From the IMG/VR virus record IMGVR_UViG_3300027974_000078, positions 1 to 36,265 of that record: a DNA stretch of 36,265 bases, one strand, 5' to 3'. Position 1 is the stretch's first letter; the number at the start of each line of letters is the position of its first letter. Shown here one piece after another: positions 93 to 36,265 of the stretch. The notes under the pieces were generated by a model. That model saw nothing but the letters and a program-made list of their open reading frames with translations. It was not told where the DNA came from and searched no databases. The translations under genes were made by a program, and so were the position numbers. This stretch comes from a virus.

Positions 93-355
93 TAGTCAAA
101 TAGTTATTTGGCAAAAAAAATGACTAGCGAAAAACGTAGCAAAATCAACGGGTTTGCCAAGATAGTCAAATAGTCATGAAAATGCGCGGGGAATTTTATA
201 TAAAAGAGTAGTATAGGTATATATCCCTATTTTCTTGCTTAGGCTTTATTAGTCTTTAAAAAATGACTATTTGACTATAAGCTATTCAACCTTTTGGAAT
301 CCCTACGTTTTTTCCTAGTCATCTGCTTGACTATCTCCGACTATTTTTTTGACTA
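93..355. promoter_or_regulatory. TAGTCA/TGACTA motif cluster
   Basis: Nine exact copies of TAGTCA or its complement TGACTA lie here: 93, 121, 163, 171, 264, 272, 316, 328 and 350. Near-copies occur at 101 (TAGTTA) and 338 (CGACTA). Two 14-bp doublets, TAGTCAAATAGTCA at 163-176 and its exact reverse complement at 264-277, face each other. The density is far above chance. The same hexamer recurs around the late promoter at 35323-35448, so a sequence-specific regulator or replication initiator is the likely ligand. Confidence 0.85.
163..277. other. AT-rich core between inverted 14-bp doublets; candidate origin or early promoter
   Basis: Two perfect inverted TAGTCA doublets enclose an 87-bp AT-rich stretch (177-263) with runs such as TTTTATATAAAAG and GGTATATAT. 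Repeats flanking an easily melted core are typical of iteron origins. A weak + strand promoter, TTTATA (195-200), 17-bp spacer, TATATA (218-223), can be drawn in the core, but AT-rich DNA gives such matches easily. A GANTC site (GAATC) lies just outside at 297-301. No gene is seen in 1-548. Confidence 0.45.
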
Positions 356-3854: not shown

Positions 3855-4199
3855 ATGACCACCGAACCGCCCATTGACGAGCGACACGAGACGCACGGGG
3901 ACTACACGAACACGGCGCAAGTATCGCAGCACCTTAAAACAACCATGCGCAACGCGCGCAACTGGAACCGGCTATCTTGCGATAAGAAGGAGAGCCTCGA
4001 CCTGATCATGACCAAGGTGGCGCGCATCATGAGCGGCGAGCCTAACGAACCCGACCATTGGCTAGATATAGAGGGTTACGCCAAGCTGGCGCGCGAGCGC
4101 CTGAGCGAGACTACCGCAGCGCGTGAAACGCGCATGACCGATGTGGGGCACCGAATCACTCCGACCGTGCTGGTAAGGCCATGGGAGCGCAAACCATGA
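3855..4199 (+). CDS. DUF6378-like phage protein (114 aa)
   Basis: Residues 9-87 (ETHGDYTNTAQVSQHLKTTM...LDLIMTKVARIMSGEPNEPDHWLDIEGYAKLA) fit the DUF6378 pattern: THGDF...A, then a DMI.KIARI..G....DHW.DI.GYA.L helix-rich core. The family is common in phages and has no assigned function; the arrangement recalls small all-alpha nucleotide-handling folds such as MazG-like proteins, which is inference. A GTG start 6 bp upstream is possible, but ATG is preferred. The gene overlaps the next by 4 bp. Confidence 0.75.
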   Translation: MTTEPPIDERHETHGDYTNTAQVSQHLKTTMRNARNWNRLSCDKKESLDLIMTKVARIMSGEPNEPDHWLDIEGYAKLARERLSETTAARETRMTDVGHRITPTVLVRPWERKP

Positions 4200-4465
4200 A
4201 AGACGCAATGGACACACTAACACCCGACCTGTTTGCGTCGGCACCGACGCCGGTACCTGAGTTCGAGGGCATCTCATATACCCTATACGCCGACCACGAA
4301 CACGAGGTGATCACCCTACTGGCGCACCGGGACAATTCGTTCTCGGTGTTCTATGACCAACAAGCCCGCGACTTTTGGCACGATTACATCGCCGAACTAA
4401 AGATCAACGGGTTCAACGCCGACGACGCGCTGGAGATGCTATGGAGGCAGAACGATGAACTATAA
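4196..4465 (+). CDS. hypothetical protein (89 aa)
   Basis: Starts MKDAMDTLTPDLFASAPTP. Overlap of ATGA with the previous stop and GGGAGCG upstream decide this start. The N-terminal LTPDLF loosely resembles a clamp-binding peptide (QLxLF type), notable because the phage carries a clamp homologue. The remainder (ISYTLYADHEHEVITLL, YDQQARDFWHDYI) suggests a mixed alpha/beta fold. No family recognised. Confidence 0.6.
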   Translation: MKDAMDTLTPDLFASAPTPVPEFEGISYTLYADHEHEVITLLAHRDNSFSVFYDQQARDFWHDYIAELKINGFNADDALEMLWRQNDEL

Positions 4466-4634
4466 GCAGCTATGTGACATTGCCGACCAGATGACCGAAA
4501 CCGCCGCACGCATGGCCGACCTTGCAACGCTCTTGCGCGCTGCTGTCAACGAGGGCGTGCAAGAGAAGATCGACTGGAAGAAGCTGGAGGCGCAAATTGC
4601 CGAAGAGCTGGCGCAACTGGAAGGTAAAGACTGA
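4455..4634 (+). CDS. hypothetical coiled-coil protein (59 aa)
   Basis: Frame MNYKQLCDIADQMTETAARM...LAQLEGKD. Almost entirely helical with heptad-like leucine/alanine spacing and an acidic end. GGAGG lies 8 bp upstream, inside the previous gene, which it overlaps by 11 bp. The same DNA has a + strand frame at 4522-4719, which lacks a site this good. Function unknown. Confidence 0.6.
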   Translation: MNYKQLCDIADQMTETAARMADLATLLRAAVNEGVQEKIDWKKLEAQIAEELAQLEGKD

Positions 4635-7077: not shown

Positions 7078-8977
7078 CCTTTTAGCCAAAGGCGCTTACA
7101 ATTACGCCCGTCATCCCAGCACCACCGTGCTTTGTATGTCCTACGCCTTTGATGACGAGGACGTCACCACATGGGACGGCGACGACAAGTTCCCTGCCCG
7201 CGTCCGCAACCACACAGGAATGATCTATGCGCATAATGCGGCGTTTGAGAGGCTTATTTGCCGCGATGTTCTCAAATTGGACTATCGTCTGGTCCAGTTC
7301 TACTGCACTGCGGTGCAAGCGGCGGCTAACTGCGCCCCGCGTTCGCTCGAAGATATTGGACGGTTCACTTCGTCCAACATGCGCAAAGACCACAAAGGCA
7401 AAGCCCTTATCAAGAAGCTCTGCGTGCCCCGCGCCGACGGAACATTTAACAACGACCCTGATCTACTGAAAGAGATGATCGCCTATTGCGAGCAGGACGT
7501 CTGGACCATGCGCGCAATCAGCAAGATGCTGCGCCCGTTGACCGCCGAGGAGCTGTTAGACTACCATGTCAACGAGCGCGTCAACGACCGCGGCGTGCTG
7601 CTGGACAAACCGCTGGCGGAAGCGGCGGTCAAATACGCCGAAGCCGAAGTGGTCGAGATACAGCAGATCGTCAAGGAAGTGACCAAAGGCGAGATCACCT
7701 CGGTGCGGTCGCCCAAGATGAAAGAATGGGTGCGCGTCCGCGTCGGACCAACCGCCCGAGGTTTTATGAAGGTGGCGGAAGATGGGGAAGAAAAGTTTTC
7801 GCTTGATAAAACCGTCCGGGCGAATCTCTTGGCGCTCGCGGACGAGAACGAGTCGGAAGTCCCACACGATGTCGCTGAAGTCATTCAATGCGCGGATGAT
7901 CTATGGTCGTCGTCAGTGGCAAAGTTTAATCGACTTGCAAGCCTTGCAGATGAGGACGATTGCAGGGTTAGAGGAGCTTTTGTATTCAATGGTGGTTCGG
8001 CAACTGGACGCGCATCGTCCTACGGAGCACAAGTTCATAATTTCCCCAGAAAATCCCACAACGATGCACTGAACGTGCGAGAGAGTATCATCCAAGGCGA
8101 GACCGTCGTGCCCAAATACGGCAAACGCGTCACCGACGTGCTTAAGCAGATGCTGCGCCCCGCCCTGATCCCGCACGCGGGTAAGAAGTTGGTTGTGGCT
8201 GACTGGTCGAGCATCGAAGCGCGCGTCACGCCGTGGATGACCGACACGCCGCACGGCGAAAAGAAGCTGGAGCTGTTTGCTAGCGGCGCCGATGTGTATA
8301 AACACAACGCCGCCGCTACTTTCGGGGTCCGCCCCGACGAAGTGAACGACCACCAGCGTCAAGTCGGGAAGGTGCAGGAGCTTGCCTGCGGGTTCGGGGG
8401 TGGTGTCGGTGCCTTTGCCAATATGGCAAGGGTATACAATTTGACCTTAACCGAGGCTGAAAGTCAACGGATGGTTGACGCTTGGCGGCGCGCCAACGTC
8501 TGGGGGCCGATCTATTGGTCGCTGCTCGAACAAGCGTACCACCGCGCGATGCGCAACAAGGGACGCGAGATTACGGCAGGACGGGTGACCTATCTTTTTG
8601 ATGGCGTCCATCTTTGGTATGCGTTACCATCTGGCCGTGTTTTGTGCTATCCCCACGCCCGCTTTGACAGCGAGGGCATCTCGTATGCCAAGGCGGCGTG
8701 GAAACCCGCACAAGACGCCCGCGAATGGCCCCGCGCCCGTCTTTGGAAGGGATTGGCCTGCGAAAATATCACACAAGCGGTGGCAAATGACTTATTGCGT
8801 CACACTCTTCGGCAAGTTGATGCTGTCCTCCATGTTCACGATGAAATCGTGCTTGAAGCATCCAACCCCGAGCAAGCCGCTGATCATTTGAAACGTATTA
8901 TGACAACGCCGCCAACGTGGGCAGTAGGGCTACCCCTTGCGGCTGAAGTCAAAATTATGGAGCGTTATGGCAAATGA
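7034..8977 (+). CDS. polA: family A DNA polymerase with 3'-5' exonuclease
   Basis: 647 residues. Exonuclease motifs: LDFET (D7, E9), NAAFE (68-72, with E where D is usual) and YCEQD (151-155). Polymerase motif A is DWSSIEAR (390-397). Motif B is RQVGKVQELACGFGG (from R442), with K446, and Leu450 at the position of E. coli Phe762. Motif C is HDE (602-604). There is no 5' nuclease domain. It replicates the phage genome. Start ATG 7034 follows AAAGGG; the end overlaps the primase gene (ATGA). The Leu762-type residue is a known variant in environmental phage polymerases and affects nucleotide selection. Confidence 0.95.
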   Translation: MSILYLDFETRSRCDLLAKGAYNYARHPSTTVLCMSYAFDDEDVTTWDGDDKFPARVRNHTGMIYAHNAAFERLICRDVLKLDYRLVQFYCTAVQAAANCAPRSLEDIGRFTSSNMRKDHKGKALIKKLCVPRADGTFNNDPDLLKEMIAYCEQDVWTMRAISKMLRPLTAEELLDYHVNERVNDRGVLLDKPLAEAAVKYAEAEVVEIQQIVKEVTKGEITSVRSPKMKEWVRVRVGPTARGFMKVAEDGEEKFSLDKTVRANLLALADENESEVPHDVAEVIQCADDLWSSSVAKFNRLASLADEDDCRVRGAFVFNGGSATGRASSYGAQVHNFPRKSHNDALNVRESIIQGETVVPKYGKRVTDVLKQMLRPALIPHAGKKLVVADWSSIEARVTPWMTDTPHGEKKLELFASGADVYKHNAAATFGVRPDEVNDHQRQVGKVQELACGFGGGVGAFANMARVYNLTLTEAESQRMVDAWRRANVWGPIYWSLLEQAYHRAMRNKGREITAGRVTYLFDGVHLWYALPSGRVLCYPHARFDSEGISYAKAAWKPAQDAREWPRARLWKGLACENITQAVANDLLRHTLRQVDAVLHVHDEIVLEASNPEQAADHLKRIMTTPPTWAVGLPLAAEVKIMERYGK

Positions 8978-11232
8978 CTAAATTTAATCAATATCTTGCA
9001 TCATTGGCGCCCGAAGGCGAAACCATGCTGTTTGTCGAACAGGTGGTTAAGGCCGACGGCAAGACCTTTTGGATGCCCTACTACCCGACCGAGGACAAGG
9101 CGGGCGCGCTGTACTGCAACACCGCCAGCTTCATCACCAACCGCTTCCCCAACCAGCGCAAGCCCAAGGCGCAGTCGGAGTTTGCCGACATGGTAGCAGT
9201 GTTGGTGCTTGACGACATTGGCACCAAGTCCAAGGCACCACCGCTGGAGCCGACGTGGAAGATGACCACCTCGGCGGGCAACCAGCAGTGGGGCTACACG
9301 TTCAACATCGACCACCAGCCAACCAAGAACGAGTTCTCCGCCGCCGTGAAGGCGATTGCGGAGGCGGGTTACACCGACGCAGGCATGACCAACCCCGTGC
9401 GCAACTTCCGTATTGAGGGGTCGGTCAACCTGAAAGAAGGCAAAGGCAATTACATCTCGCACGTCAGCGACTTCGACCCGACGCGCGAGTTCACGCTGGC
9501 CGAAATCTGCGAGGCGCTAGGGGTGGTGCCCGCGGAGGCTGACACGGCCTCCGCGGGCGGGATCAGGATCGCGGACGATGGCGGCGACATGGTGTTGCGG
9601 TGGCTGTCCGAGCACGATCAGGTGCTTGAGCCAACCAACGCCGACGGTTGGACGGGAGTGATTTGCCCCAACTATGAAGAGCACACCACCGGCATCGAGG
9701 GCGGGCGTTACAATTCGATCACCCGCGCCTTCTCGTGCTTCCACGGCCACTGCGCGCACATTACCAGCGAGGCCTACGCGCAGTACGTTGAGAACAACGG
9801 CGGCCCGCACTACGACCGCGGTTACCGCAGCGACCTTGTGTTCGGTCGCCTGAGCGCAAACCTTGCCAAGGCGGGGCTTACGCCGACCGAGGCCTACCCT
9901 AACCGCACCGAGGAGATCATCGCCGAAGTCGAGCGCAAAGAGCTGGGGCGCACCGCCAAGCAGAACTGGTTCACGCGGTTCGCTTATGTCCCCGGCGAGG
10001 ACGCTTACTTTGACCTTGAGGAGCGCAGGCTGTTGTCGCGTCGCGCGTTTGACGCCATGTTCCGCCACATTGAGTGCAAGTCGATCCACGGTGAGAAGAA
10101 GCCCAAGATCGACGCGTCGCGGTGCTACGACGAGAACAGGCAGGCGTTGGGCGCGCATACGCTGGACGGCTTGACGTTCGCTGCTGGCGACAGCGTGCTG
10201 GCGGTCGAAGAGGGCCGCGTCTACGGCAACCGCTGGATTGACAGCCGCCGCACAGGCGCGGATGCCGACGCAAGCATCTGGTTACAGCACGTCGAGCGTA
10301 TGGTGCCCGACGCTGACGTGCGGGCGCATGTGCTTGACACGATGGCGTTCAAGCTCCAGACGCCCAAGAAGAAGATCAACCACGCCATCCTGCACTACGG
10401 CGTGGAAGGCGCGGGCAAGGACGCGATGTGGTCGCCGTTTTTCCACGCTATCGGGATGCGCAACGTGGTGGTCAACGACGTGGACCAGATCAGCGGCGAC
10501 TGGGGCTATAGCCTTGAGAACGAGGTGATCGTGTTCAACGAGTTGAAAGAGGCGTCCGCCAATGAGCGGCGCGCTTTGGCTAACCGGCTGAAAGGGCTGA
10601 TCGCCGCGCCGCCGGACAAGTTGGAAGTGCGGCGCAAGGGCGAGCACCCCTACATGATCCCCAACAGGGCGTTCGTGATGGCGTTCACCAACCACCCCGC
10701 CGCTATTTCGCTGGCCGCCGCCGACCGCCGCTGGATGTGTATCCATTCGACAGCGCCGCGCATGGACGAGGCGGACGCCAAGGCGTTGTGGGGCTGGTAC
10801 GAGCGCGGCGGGGGCTACGACGCGGTGGCGGGCTATCTGTTGCGCCGCAACATAGCGCACTACAACCCGTCGGCGCCGCCAATGGCGACCGACTTTAAGG
10901 TCAATATGGTTGAGATGGGCCGGTCGGACGCTGAAGCGTATATGATCGACATGATGCGCAACTGCTCTGGCGAGTTTTCCAAAGGCGTTATTGGCGGCCC
11001 GTGGCATAAGTTGATCGACATGCTGCAAGGCGGCATCACCACGACCAAGCTCTATAAGGGTGTGCTGATGGAGGCGTTCAAAGAAGCGGGTTGGGTTGAC
11101 AAGGGGCTGATCATGTCCGCACAGCACACAACCAAACGTCATGTGTTCTGTCACCCCGACAGAACGCACATGTCAAACAGCGACTTGCGCCGGGCGATTG
11201 AAGAGCCTGTCGAATTGAAGGTGGTGAAGTGA
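8974..11232 (+). CDS. primase-helicase (AEP-like primase plus SF3-type helicase)
   Basis: 752 residues. VAVLVLDDIGTK (75-85) resembles the catalytic acidic strand of RepB/AEP-type phage primases. C231, H237, C255 and C260 form a possible zinc site. Helicase part: GVEGAGKD Walker A (476-483), VIVFNELKE Walker B-like (518-525, N522/E523), MAFTNH sensor strand (569-574) and a basic R585-R586. The plan fits phage primase-polymerase/helicases of the DUF5906 or NrS-1-like group. It would prime and unwind at the fork. It overlaps the polymerase stop by 4 bp and is followed at once by the VRR-NUC gene. Confidence 0.85.
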   Translation: MTKFNQYLASLAPEGETMLFVEQVVKADGKTFWMPYYPTEDKAGALYCNTASFITNRFPNQRKPKAQSEFADMVAVLVLDDIGTKSKAPPLEPTWKMTTSAGNQQWGYTFNIDHQPTKNEFSAAVKAIAEAGYTDAGMTNPVRNFRIEGSVNLKEGKGNYISHVSDFDPTREFTLAEICEALGVVPAEADTASAGGIRIADDGGDMVLRWLSEHDQVLEPTNADGWTGVICPNYEEHTTGIEGGRYNSITRAFSCFHGHCAHITSEAYAQYVENNGGPHYDRGYRSDLVFGRLSANLAKAGLTPTEAYPNRTEEIIAEVERKELGRTAKQNWFTRFAYVPGEDAYFDLEERRLLSRRAFDAMFRHIECKSIHGEKKPKIDASRCYDENRQALGAHTLDGLTFAAGDSVLAVEEGRVYGNRWIDSRRTGADADASIWLQHVERMVPDADVRAHVLDTMAFKLQTPKKKINHAILHYGVEGAGKDAMWSPFFHAIGMRNVVVNDVDQISGDWGYSLENEVIVFNELKEASANERRALANRLKGLIAAPPDKLEVRRKGEHPYMIPNRAFVMAFTNHPAAISLAAADRRWMCIHSTAPRMDEADAKALWGWYERGGGYDAVAGYLLRRNIAHYNPSAPPMATDFKVNMVEMGRSDAEAYMIDMMRNCSGEFSKGVIGGPWHKLIDMLQGGITTTKLYKGVLMEAFKEAGWVDKGLIMSAQHTTKRHVFCHPDRTHMSNSDLRRAIEEPVELKVVK

Positions 11233-33367: not shown

Positions 33368-34897
33368 TTACGATCCCATCCATGAGTTGGTGACGTTTGA
33401 CGCAGAGCTAAACGAATAGCTGCGTGGTTTATCGACATATTCGCGGTGTGCGACAGGATAGGCAAAGGTCACGGCCAGCGCGTCTGCTGCGTCAGGTGAT
33501 GCCAGTCCTCTTGCCCGCATTTCCTTTTTCCCTTCAAGGAAAATGGTTCCAGATGAGTTTGGCTTCTTTGTCGGCCCCACAAGGTCCGCTTTCAGTTGCC
33601 TGTCTTGCGGGATGGCGGCTGTCTTAAGCCACTCCCGCATCGCGCCCCACATCTCAGCCCGTTTGTTACCCCACATAATGGAGTTCTTGGCTTTCCAGCC
33701 AAAATTAACACCTCGTACCTTATACCGCTGTTCGTTGAGTCGGTCAAGGACGCCGTAACCTAACCCGCCTTCGTCGATCACTGTCAGCGTTGGCCTGTAC
33801 TGCTCGATAGCCTCGATGACATGGCCAACGGTCGTCATGGTGTCGTCGCCGTTGTAGCGTTTGATTGCCACGATGTCGCGGCCTTGGCGCACCACAATGA
33901 CGGTCGAGTCCGCTCCGCCGCGCGCTGGGTCAACGCCAATCACAATAGGCGCCGTCATGTCTTTGTGCTTGTCGCGGCGCATGGCGTCGTCCACCATGTG
34001 CCCCGTGATGAACTGATCGTCGCCCGCTGACGGGAACTCGCCGTACACCTCAACCTTGGCCTGCGACGAGTCCTCGCCATACTCGGCAATGATCTGTGCG
34101 TAGACGTTCTTGTCGGTGTCCTCGACCGTGCGCGAGTCAACCGACATCGTATCCCAGAAGTCGCGCTTGGCGTTAAACGTCTCGAAGAAATACCCGTGGT
34201 TGCGGCGCGGGTTGGAGAACGCCAGCCAATAGCGGTGCAGCACGTTTTCCGTAAAGAAGCCCGCGCCTACTGACCAGATAGGGTCGGGGATACCGCTGGC
34301 CTCGTCAAAGATCAGCATCATGCCGTCGTGGTTATGCACCCCGGCGTAGCTATCCGGGTTCTCTTCCGACCACAGCTTGCCCTCAGCGGCCCAGTAGCGC
34401 GTCCCCTTCTTCAAGTCGCGCTCGACCAGCTCGCATACCCATTTGGCAGGCATCAGCTTGGTTGCGCTGATCTCCCACCAATGCCCGTTGACGATCATCG
34501 CCGCCCACTTGGTCAGCTCACCCCACGTCACCGAGCGCAACTGCGCCTCGGAGTTGGCCGACACGATGACGGTCGAGCCGATCTGCGTGGACAGCATCCA
34601 CAGCACCAACCAGCTTACCAGTGCCGACTTGCCGATCCCGCGCCCTGACGACACCGCCATGCGCAGCGTCTCCATGTTAACCTTGCCGTCATTGTCCTTG
34701 ATGTGCTTGGCAATGCGCCGCAGCACCGTGCGCTGCCATGTGCGCGGGCCTTTGAAGTTGGCTAGTGGCGTATTGGGCTGACCCCACGGGAACGCAAACA
34801 GAACGAACGCTTCAGGGTTGCGCGCTATCTCTGGGGACCAGATTTGCGTCATCAACTGTTGTTCGCCTGCTGGATCGTAGATCGGCATCTGCGCCAT
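33368..34897 (-). CDS. terL: terminase large subunit
   Basis: 509 residues. Walker A SSGRGIGKS (83-91), Walker B MLIFDEA (194-200, D198/E199), nuclease acidic residues at VDPARGG (D323), VIDEGG (D375) and SPDAADAL (D469, D472). ATPase motor plus headful-type nuclease. CAGGAAC precedes the ATG. The gene begins within the small-subunit gene (86-bp overlap). Confidence 0.96.
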   Translation of the reverse strand: MAQMPIYDPAGEQQLMTQIWSPEIARNPEAFVLFAFPWGQPNTPLANFKGPRTWQRTVLRRIAKHIKDNDGKVNMETLRMAVSSGRGIGKSALVSWLVLWMLSTQIGSTVIVSANSEAQLRSVTWGELTKWAAMIVNGHWWEISATKLMPAKWVCELVERDLKKGTRYWAAEGKLWSEENPDSYAGVHNHDGMMLIFDEASGIPDPIWSVGAGFFTENVLHRYWLAFSNPRRNHGYFFETFNAKRDFWDTMSVDSRTVEDTDKNVYAQIIAEYGEDSSQAKVEVYGEFPSAGDDQFITGHMVDDAMRRDKHKDMTAPIVIGVDPARGGADSTVIVVRQGRDIVAIKRYNGDDTMTTVGHVIEAIEQYRPTLTVIDEGGLGYGVLDRLNEQRYKVRGVNFGWKAKNSIMWGNKRAEMWGAMREWLKTAAIPQDRQLKADLVGPTKKPNSSGTIFLEGKKEMRARGLASPDAADALAVTFAYPVAHREYVDKPRSYSFSSASNVTNSWMGS

Positions 34898-35309
34898 AAG
34901 TCAGTTCCTGTAAAGGTTCATGTTCAATAGTCTTAACACGGGCGTGTGCGTCTGCCAACGCCTGCGTGATGGAGATGGACGTGTGGTTGTCCACCGTGAT
35001 GTGCTGCTTGGCCACCCAGTCAGCGCGGTGCTTGAGATAGTCAAGCGCCACTTTGGCGTCGCCCGCGTCGATAGCAGTCTGGATAGTGTTGGCGGCAGCG
35101 TACTCAGCGTCGGCGTAGCCCCAGCCTGCGGCTTCTTCCGCAACAGGGTCCATCTCGCACAAGCGTCGGTATTCAATAGGTGACAGTCCGGCAACGCGCG
35201 CCAGCGTGTCGCCTTTGAGTCCTTTGCGGGCTGCATTGTAGATGCGCCGCAGTACGTCTTCGCTGGCGCGGATGCTGCGGACGGACAGGGGTAGACTTTC
35301 AAAAGCCAT
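34812..35309 (-). CDS. terS: terminase small subunit
   Basis: 165 residues from MAFESLPLSVRSIRASEDVL (AGGACCG upstream; a start 36 bp earlier is less likely). Helical DNA-binding region with GLKGDTLARVAGLSPIEYRRLCEM (HTH-like, ~31-54), an alpha-helical oligomerisation part (EYAAANTIQTAIDAGDAKVALDYLKHR) and a low-complexity end. It should recognise the packaging site, possibly the terminal repeats. Confidence 0.85.
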   Translation of the reverse strand: MAFESLPLSVRSIRASEDVLRRIYNAARKGLKGDTLARVAGLSPIEYRRLCEMDPVAEEAAGWGYADAEYAAANTIQTAIDAGDAKVALDYLKHRADWVAKQHITVDNHTSISITQALADAHARVKTIEHEPLQELTYGADADLRSSRRTTVDDANLVPRDSAQP

Positions 35310-35322
35310 TTGCGGTCCTGTG

Positions 35323-35448
35323 TAGTCAAAATAGTCAATAGTCATTTTGATGCGGGTTGCATTATACGCGAGCCAATTTCTAAATCAATCCCTACGCTAT
35401 ACGCCAGCACTGCGCCGTTTTGCAAATGACTACCGCAACTATTGACTA
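35323..35448. promoter_or_regulatory. late control region: promoter flanked by TAGTCA motifs
   Basis: Three TAGTCA copies (35323, 35332, 35339) lie between the terminase start and a minus-strand promoter TTGATT (35383-35388), 16-bp spacer, TATAAT (35361-35366). Two opposite copies (TGACTA 35427 and 35443) lie on the far side, the last one inside the HNH gene's end. Initiation near 35354 would place three motifs just downstream of +1. The same hexamer dominates the early control region. Confidence 0.75.
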
Positions 35449-35909
35449 CCCGCGCGCAAAACGTCGTACCACGTTTTAGCTTCTTCTATAGTGTTAAACC
35501 GTTTTTTGCGCCGCACATTACCTTTTTGAAATGCCGCAAGGTACGGTTTTTTATTTTTAGGTGTAATTTCAGCATATCGAACGCCACGCACACCCAGCAC
35601 GCCTTTAGCGTATTCACTGTTGACGGCGTTGTCGCTGTATGAAACGCATCGAAGGTTAACCCACCGGTTATCATCTCGTACCCGGTTAATGTGGTCTATT
35701 ACGCCGTTTGGGTGTTCGCCGGTCATATATAGCCACGCTAACCGTGCAACGGGGTAAGTTCGTTTTTTAACGGTCAATTGCAAATAGCCTTGGCGCGCGC
35801 TTCCAAGCACAGTGCCCGCTGGGCGACGGCGATGCAATTTGACAAGCGTAAATACGCCGGTGTCAGGGTCGTAATGCAAATAATCTTTAAGTTCAGATTG
35901 CGTAAGCAT
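35439..35909 (-). CDS. HNH endonuclease with AP2-like tail
   Basis: 156 residues. YPVARLAWLYMTGEHPNGVIDHINRVRDDNRWVNLR (52-87) is the HNH_3-type core with D72-H73, N81 and N86. Residues 105-150 (GVRGVRYAEITPKNKKPYLAAFQ...FNTIEEAKTWYD) form an AP2-like DNA-binding domain. This is the layout of phage homing or packaging-associated endonucleases. A strong AAAAGGAG site precedes it. Position directly upstream of the terminase genes is typical of packaging HNH proteins, though homing cannot be excluded. The TAGTCA motif forms part of its last codons. Confidence 0.88.
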   Translation of the reverse strand: MLTQSELKDYLHYDPDTGVFTLVKLHRRRPAGTVLGSARQGYLQLTVKKRTYPVARLAWLYMTGEHPNGVIDHINRVRDDNRWVNLRCVSYSDNAVNSEYAKGVLGVRGVRYAEITPKNKKPYLAAFQKGNVRRKKRFNTIEEAKTWYDVLRAGSQ

Positions 35910-35927
35910 GGGCGTCTCCTTTTACGC

Positions 35928-35957
35928 ACAGTAGCAGGGTCCGTAATTTTTTGTCAA
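35928..35957 (-). promoter_or_regulatory. sigma-70-like promoter for the HNH gene
   Basis: A perfect TTGACA (plus-strand TGTCAA 35952-35957), 18-bp spacer, then TACTGT (35928-35933), a weak -10. The start would lie about 12 bp before the ATG at 35909. It opens the leftward arm from the control region and stands beside an A-rich stretch (35961-35972) that may serve as UP element. Confidence 0.5.
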
Positions 35958-36035
35958 ATTAAAAAAAAATAAATTCTTGTAGACCCTCCGCAAACTTGGC
36001 TGGCGGCCGCAGGGCCCTGTGGCCCCATGGTGCGG

Positions 36036-36053
36036 TGCAACAGAAATGGTGCA
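36036..36053. promoter_or_regulatory. possible NtrC-like enhancer site
   Basis: TGCAACAGAAATGGTGCA resembles the NtrC-type dyad TGCAC-N7-GTGCA: the right half (AAATGGTGCA) is very close, while the left half is imperfect and the element is one base longer. It lies about 10 bp upstream of the first sigma-54-like element, closer than normal enhancers. A second TGGTGC half-site is at 36028. Weak evidence on its own. Confidence 0.3.
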
Positions 36054-36061
36054 CTGCCACA

Positions 36062-36128
36062 TGGCACAGTCCTTGCCTGTGGGACTGGCACGGTTCTTGC
36101 TTGCCGCGCAACTGGCACAGTCCTTGCC
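36062..36128 (+). promoter_or_regulatory. three tandem sigma-54-like (-24/-12) elements
   Basis: TGGCACAGTCCTTGC (36062-36076), TGGCACGGTTCTTGC (36086-36100) and TGGCACAGTCCTTGC (36113-36127) all have the invariant GG-N10-GC of sigma-54 promoters, and the middle one matches TGGCACGNNNNTTGCW exactly. All read rightward, toward the joined end and the early genes. The outer two copies continue as the same 23 bases to 36084 and 36135, so they may be a repeated module. Confidence 0.55.
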
Positions 36129-36174
36129 TGTGGGATTGTGTCGCGCAATGCGGGATTGCGTTTTAGTTTTGGGA

Positions 36175-36194
36175 TTGCGTCTCGTGCGGTGGGA
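36175..36194. repeat. inverse partner of the 379-441 repeats
   Basis: TTGCGTCTCGTGCGGTGGGA is the reverse-complement type of the TCCCACGC-N4-AGACGCA repeats at 379-441 (15 of 20 identities to the first copy's complement). A shorter direct copy GGGATTGCGT lies at 36152. It stands just before the tandem array, so related sites flank the array in opposite orientation. Confidence 0.55.
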
Positions 36195-36265
36195 TGGTGG
36201 CGGATGGTGGCGGATGGTGGCGGATGGTGGCGGATGGTGGCGGATGGTGGCGGATGGTGGCGGAT
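36190..36265. repeat. 10-bp tandem repeat array, right end
   Basis: A degenerate unit TGGGATGGTG (36190-36199) leads into six exact GCGGATGGTG units (36200-36259) and a partial GCGGAT that stops the contig. It continues in phase with the left array if the terminal GCGGAT is shared, giving about 15 units in all. Confidence 0.97.

Follow-up and report, generated by a model that had tools for sequence, protein, structure and literature searches.

A TAGTCA iteron, probably read by a PrimPol-type primase-helicase, at a candidate phage replication origin and around a late promoter

Two clusters of one hexamer

Why does one hexamer, TAGTCA, gather at two control regions of a phage genome, and which protein reads it? 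We analysed the whole stretch of 36,265 bp (the window), which is a complete virus record. Exact copies of TAGTCA, or of its reverse complement TGACTA, number 23 against 7.8 expected; 100 dinucleotide shuffles gave a mean of 7.8 (sd 2.4, maximum 13), and none reached 23. Fourteen of the 23 copies lie in two clusters, nine at 93-355 (cluster 1) and five at 35323-35448 (cluster 2: 35323, 35332 and 35339 on the plus strand, 35427 and 35443 on the minus strand). The other nine are dispersed at about chance level, with no enrichment of the hexamer outside the clusters. The preliminary description had already reported the concentration in two regions and at least nine copies at 93-355, and both are borne out, with two one-mismatch copies besides in cluster 1 (TAGTTA at 101 and CGACTA at 338). 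It had also described close pairs 7-9 bp apart and inverted 14-mers; the spacing within pairs is in fact 7-10 bp, and the 14-mer TAGTCAAATAGTCA occurs exactly once on each strand, at 163-176 (+) and 264-277 (-).

An identical 10-bp tandem repeat is found at both ends of the window, so that 35323-36265 and 1-355 are probably contiguous, a single control region from which the late genes run leftward and the early genes rightward. The repeat unit is GCGGATGGTG (positions 1-85 and 36190-36265), and another unit, CCGGTCGAGCG, occupies this place in the relative G001. Rfam and tRNA searches gave no matches.

In our reading, TAGTCA is very probably the iteron of the phage replication origin, read by the phage's own PrimPol-type primase-helicase, with the same protein probably binding at cluster 2 as well.

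Cluster 1 looks like a replication origin

Cluster 1 is made up of the following parts.

93..176, plus strand: left iteron set, with TAGTCA at 93, 163 and 171 (+), TAGTTA at 101 and one TGACTA at 121 (-)
177..263: AT-rich core of 87 bp, candidate DNA unwinding element, 29% GC against 55% GC for the genome
264..355, minus strand: right iteron set, with TGACTA at 264, 272, 328 and 350, CGACTA at 338 and one TAGTCA at 316 (+)

Direct pairs, the AT-rich core and then inverted direct pairs follow the plan of an iteron origin, and the same plan is known from the origins of E. coli PICIs (PMC6092414). Judged by this anatomy, cluster 1 looks like a replication origin rather than an operator field. Alternatively, TAGTCA at the early and late promoters could be bound by a small regulator of phage or host origin (a GcrA-like protein or another early one), which would time transcription; cluster 1 does lie directly upstream of the early genes, and cluster 2 brackets a sigma-70-like promoter that is conserved in the relatives G001 and L087. 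However, inverted pairs around an AT-rich core are origin-like, and the comparison of relatives given below makes such an operator system improbable.

The GC skew has no clean switch at cluster 1 and gives no clear origin signal. In G001 one right-hand copy of cluster 1 is missing, and L087, a close relative, has irregular iteron spacing and a less AT-rich core. The layout also occurs in Bacteroidetes metagenome-assembled genomes (MAGs) as dispersed repeats adjoining housekeeping genes, with no such helicase detected nearby; thus, the layout alone is no proof of an origin. Given that these MAG copies have an identical layout, the iterons might be structural or mobile repeats without a binding protein, like the dispersed repeats of Bacteroidetes chromosomes. 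Against this stand their fixed genome position in the phage family, the turnover of the word with the layout kept, and the covariation of the word with one protein patch, and we regard this explanation as very improbable. As a separate observation, the TAGTCA modules L312-L330 are dispersed in the chromosomes of Bacteroidetes and other MAGs, some genomes having two or three copies.

A primase-helicase as the proposed initiator

The proposed reader of the iterons is encoded in the early direction.

8974..11232, plus strand: PrimPol-D5/SF3-type primase-helicase of 752 aa (DUF5906, Pfam PF19263), proposed initiator on the basis of an AlphaFold2 model, fold matches and covariation
10921..11208, plus strand: its C-terminal winged helix (residues 650-745), in which residues 713-719 (11110-11130) covary most with the word

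The AlphaFold2 model (mean pLDDT 81.7) comprises an AEP-like primase domain, an SF3-type helicase and a C-terminal winged helix. A sequence search against solved structures gave no relevant match, and the fold comparison alone succeeded. The model matched NrS-1 PrimPol with a Z score of 25.4 (VIA; residues 323-728) and SaPI5 Rep with a Z score of 17.5 (residues 317-745), followed by PriRep1 with dsDNA (12.9) and, over residues 1-189, the RepB' primase (12.5) and the fold of S-2L PrimPol. In Cch2 and SaPI Rep, iterons are bound by the C-terminal domain (PMC7581432).

By analogy, the initiator would use its C-terminal winged helix to bind the direct pairs that flank the AT-rich core (163-277), load as a ring, melt the core and start replication, in the manner of SaPI and SCCmec initiators. 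Additional iteron copies on each side may strengthen or regulate its loading.

The layout is kept in relatives while the word changes

We scanned relatives for modules in which two copies of any hexamer, spaced 6-11 bp, have two copies of its reverse complement after them within 200 bp. Such modules were found in many relatives, and only one of ~155 shuffled contigs matched. In most relatives the module lies between the gene for the terminase small subunit (TerS) and the early genes, each with its own word: TGTAGG in G006, ATTGTC in G007, TGTGGACAAT in G025, GTTAGTCAT in G028, and others. The preliminary description had named non-conserved motifs in relatives as a refutation; the outcome is split, for related phages keep the module while the motif itself changes and follows the primase-helicase. 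On the initiator tree the word changes about 14 times. As far as the compared sequences tell, the word tracks the primase-helicase across relatives while the module stays. A strict TNGNCA rule for all words was rejected, as it fits many words but not all. Three relatives with CGTAAC repeats (G013, G015 and G017) were left out, having a terminase in common with the window but not this primase; their repeats surround a core of ~53 bp. A second repeat family, GTTAGT-N4/8-ACTAAC in inverted pairs, was seen upstream of TerS in G022, G024, G025, G026 and G028, whose origin words differ.

Pattern scans for the TAGTCA module itself returned 33 viral stretches at period 8 and 62 at period 9; with the word scrambled, the period-8 pattern returned 2. 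These phages fall into several lineages and include some whose other genes show no homology to those of the window. Some have the window's terminase family; in others the terminase large subunit (TerL) is only ~30% identical and no TerS homologue is detectable, yet their replication genes, among them those for the primase and PolA, are the same. A lineage with an unrelated terminase has a VapE primase-helicase adjoining the module, and another has a DUF5906 helicase of 773-779 aa on the contig. DUF5906 or VapE domains were present in 17 of the 21 TAGTCA-module contigs of at least 16 kb versus 3 of 32 in a comparison set chosen with an arbitrary 15-mer; as contigs of one lineage are not independent, this is to be read as a contrast rather than a formal test. 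In the other four of the 21, such a helicase was not found. One contig (G037, 40,220 b) carries two VapE genes and two TAGTCA modules.

This distribution bears on the choice of protein. The preliminary description had suggested the GcrA-like protein or unassigned early proteins as binders. Neither suggestion is supported by distribution: the GcrA-like protein occurs at most in close relatives and is absent from other phages with the TAGTCA module, and the same holds for the early proteins encoded at 474-2553 and 4181-4634. Among the proteins checked, no regulator gene is common to the motif-bearing phages, and the words track the winged helix of the primase-helicase, both of which speak against an operator system. 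What survives of the earlier proposal is that a single phage protein most likely recognises the word in both control regions; the operator and repressor part is not supported. The early region also encodes a sliding-clamp-like protein (1502-2149; DNA_pol3_beta central domain).

The iterons could also be recognition sites for TerS in the packaging region. They do lie near TerS and near a conserved element that is a possible packaging site, but TAGTCA modules persist in lineages with a ~30%-identical TerL, no detectable TerS homologue and the same replication genes, and the initiator is favoured both by the AT-rich core between the iteron sets and by the covariation. We consider this explanation hardly credible, and TerS as the binder was rejected on account of the TAGTCA phages with another terminase.

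A short patch around residue 714 predicts the word

The initiators of L014 and L024 are 96% identical and their words differ. None of the 30 differences falls in residues 1-400, and 26 fall from residue 600 on; in sequence, this is a near-natural domain swap. In a first scan of alignment columns, TAGTCA-associated columns made up 5 of 100 in the winged helix versus 6 of 757 elsewhere, which 2 of 300 shuffles reached. In this first set, every TAGTCA initiator had M, T or S at residue 714, and no other initiator did.

A second set consisted of 79 newly fetched loci, for which words were called automatically and blind to residue 714. The residue paired with the word as K with TGGACA (11/12), H with TGGGCA (8/9), A with GGGTCA (11/12) and M with TAGTCA (1/1). 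In distance-matched pairs with different words (72 phages, both sets combined), the largest excess was found at columns 714, 719, 716 and 713, with 717 sixth. Residue 714 ranked first of 760 columns (z 8.2), a value that none of 500 label shuffles reached in any column, although such shuffles do not fully remove shared ancestry. Attention was first drawn to this position by visual inspection, some of the first 34 words were assigned manually, and a few phages do not fit the code. Residues 193-281, which mutual information had picked without distance matching, were discarded, the signal being largely gone after distance matching. From this covariation we infer that the initiator binds the iterons and drives replication from the origin.

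The second iteron set brackets a sigma-70-like promoter before the terminase genes

Cluster 2 and its neighbours are arranged as follows.

33368..34897, minus strand: terminase large subunit
34812..35309, minus strand: terminase small subunit (TerS), homologues matched, with a revised start at ATG 35309
35323..35344, plus strand: cluster 2 left set, three TAGTCA (35323, 35332 and 35339) in the 5' leader of TerS
35361..35388, minus strand: sigma-70-like late promoter TTGATT-N16-TATAAT, bracketed by cluster 2, its hexamers unchanged in G001 and L087
35427..35448, minus strand: cluster 2 right set, TGACTA at 35427 and 35443 and a decayed middle copy, CAACTA, at 35436, which is intact in G001 and L087
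35439..35909, minus strand: HNH endonuclease gene, absent here in G001 and L087
35957..36043, minus strand: element common to relatives just upstream of TerS, reading GGGCC...GGAGGGTC...and then an A/T-rich run

The preliminary description had placed five copies around TTGATT-N16-TATAAT before the terminase genes, and we find the same arrangement, the promoter reading from 35388 to 35361 on the minus strand. One consensus match of this grade was found against 1.3 expected by chance; therefore, the conservation in G001 and L087 is the better evidence for it. The promoter lies 50-80 bp before the likely TerS start. That start is most likely ATG 35309 (after AGGAC) and not 35345, and thus the three left copies lie in the 5' leader and not inside the gene. 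In G001 and L087, cluster 2 has 3+3 copies and the core is almost unchanged. In the window, the HNH gene is inserted at the right edge of cluster 2 with its stop codon within iteron DNA, and one of the six iterons is decayed. Farther upstream, the conserved change from G-rich to A/T-rich sequence at 35957-36043 is a possible packaging site.

Among relatives that use another word, several show a promoter-like sequence immediately ahead of TerS that is free of flanking iterons, and therefore the bracket seems particular to the clade of the window. Extra copies do occur on the TerS side in TAGTCA relatives. Independently, the unrelated lineage D has two full modules, the second of them immediately ahead of a short gene and the terminase genes and the other elsewhere on the contig.

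The initiator probably binds cluster 2 as well and so touches the late promoter. That it acts on late transcription at all is suggested by the bracketed promoter and by the second module before the terminase genes in lineage D; the sign of its effect is a guess. Bound at cluster 2, it might keep the late promoter shut or otherwise modify it until the supply of initiator runs out or the DNA has been replicated. We tentatively suggest, with rather less than even confidence, that the initiator is a late-gene switch coupling packaging-gene expression to replication, and that the code at residue 714 (M/T/S with TAGTCA, K with TGGACA, H with TGGGCA, A with GGGTCA or TTGNCA) permits a change of address by a few substitutions.

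Cluster 2 might instead be a second, weaker replication origin and not a promoter switch. The 3+3 inverted layout and 82-bp core in G001 fit the module pattern, and the phages of group D have two full modules per genome. However, the core of cluster 2 has 46% GC and holds the conserved promoter close to TerS, and in group D too the second module stands directly before packaging genes. We hold a second origin to be unlikely, if still worth serious weight.

Implications

Iteron origins read by D5/VapE-type initiators are already known from satellites and SCCmec, and the evolution of their specificity has been hard to study. This phage family offers ~14 word changes, the near-natural domain swap of L014 and L024 and a short protein patch predicting the word, so that a recognition code becomes testable by single substitutions. 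Such a code would allow origins to be predicted in uncultivated phages. The word and the enzyme patch changing together suggests how such initiators come to recognise new origins, and the word turnover suggests pressure for address change, perhaps from satellites or origin-targeting nucleases. With a further set of iterons placed at the late promoter, replication and late transcription may also be linked.

Comparison with known systems

The best reading is a SaPI/PICI-like rep-ori replicon, which works like a SaPI or PICI but is not one. As defined for these elements (PMC6092414), short iterons form two sets flanking an AT-rich region. Like SaPI5 Rep and EcCICFT073, the window's predicted initiator is a primase-helicase with a C-terminal DNA-binding domain, judging from the model and its fold matches; helicase initiators of SaPIs and PICIs are often primase-helicases of this build. 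In SaPIs and PICIs, however, the origin lies directly downstream of the rep gene; in the window the gene is at 8974-11232 and the origin at 93-355, a distance of ~9 kb, which is ~2-3 kb in several relatives, and the two are adjacent in group C. SaPIs and PICIs are integrated phage-inducible satellites, whereas the window belongs to a podovirus-type phage, its 36-kb contig including head, tail and terminase genes, and has a second iteron set at the late promoter.

The N-terminal AEP-type primase fold and SF3-type helicase of the model are those of a D5/NrS-1-type PrimPol-helicase. The NrS-1 phage PrimPol-helicase is the closest solved fold, with primase fused to helicase in both, but identity is at most 14%, and the comparison concerns the protein fold, not the origins. 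Cch2 of SCCmec is a D5-family initiator like the window's, and its C-terminal domain binds short direct repeats (PMC7581432); unlike in the window, its site is a single direct-repeat region with no more than three short iterons, and a separate protein serves as primase. RepA of the V. cholerae satellite PLE belongs to the RepA_N family, with ~30-bp semi-palindromic iterons, and is unrelated to the window's initiator. It nevertheless provides a precedent for iteron change under conflict, in which a phage nuclease mimics the specificity of the initiator (PMC8263062).
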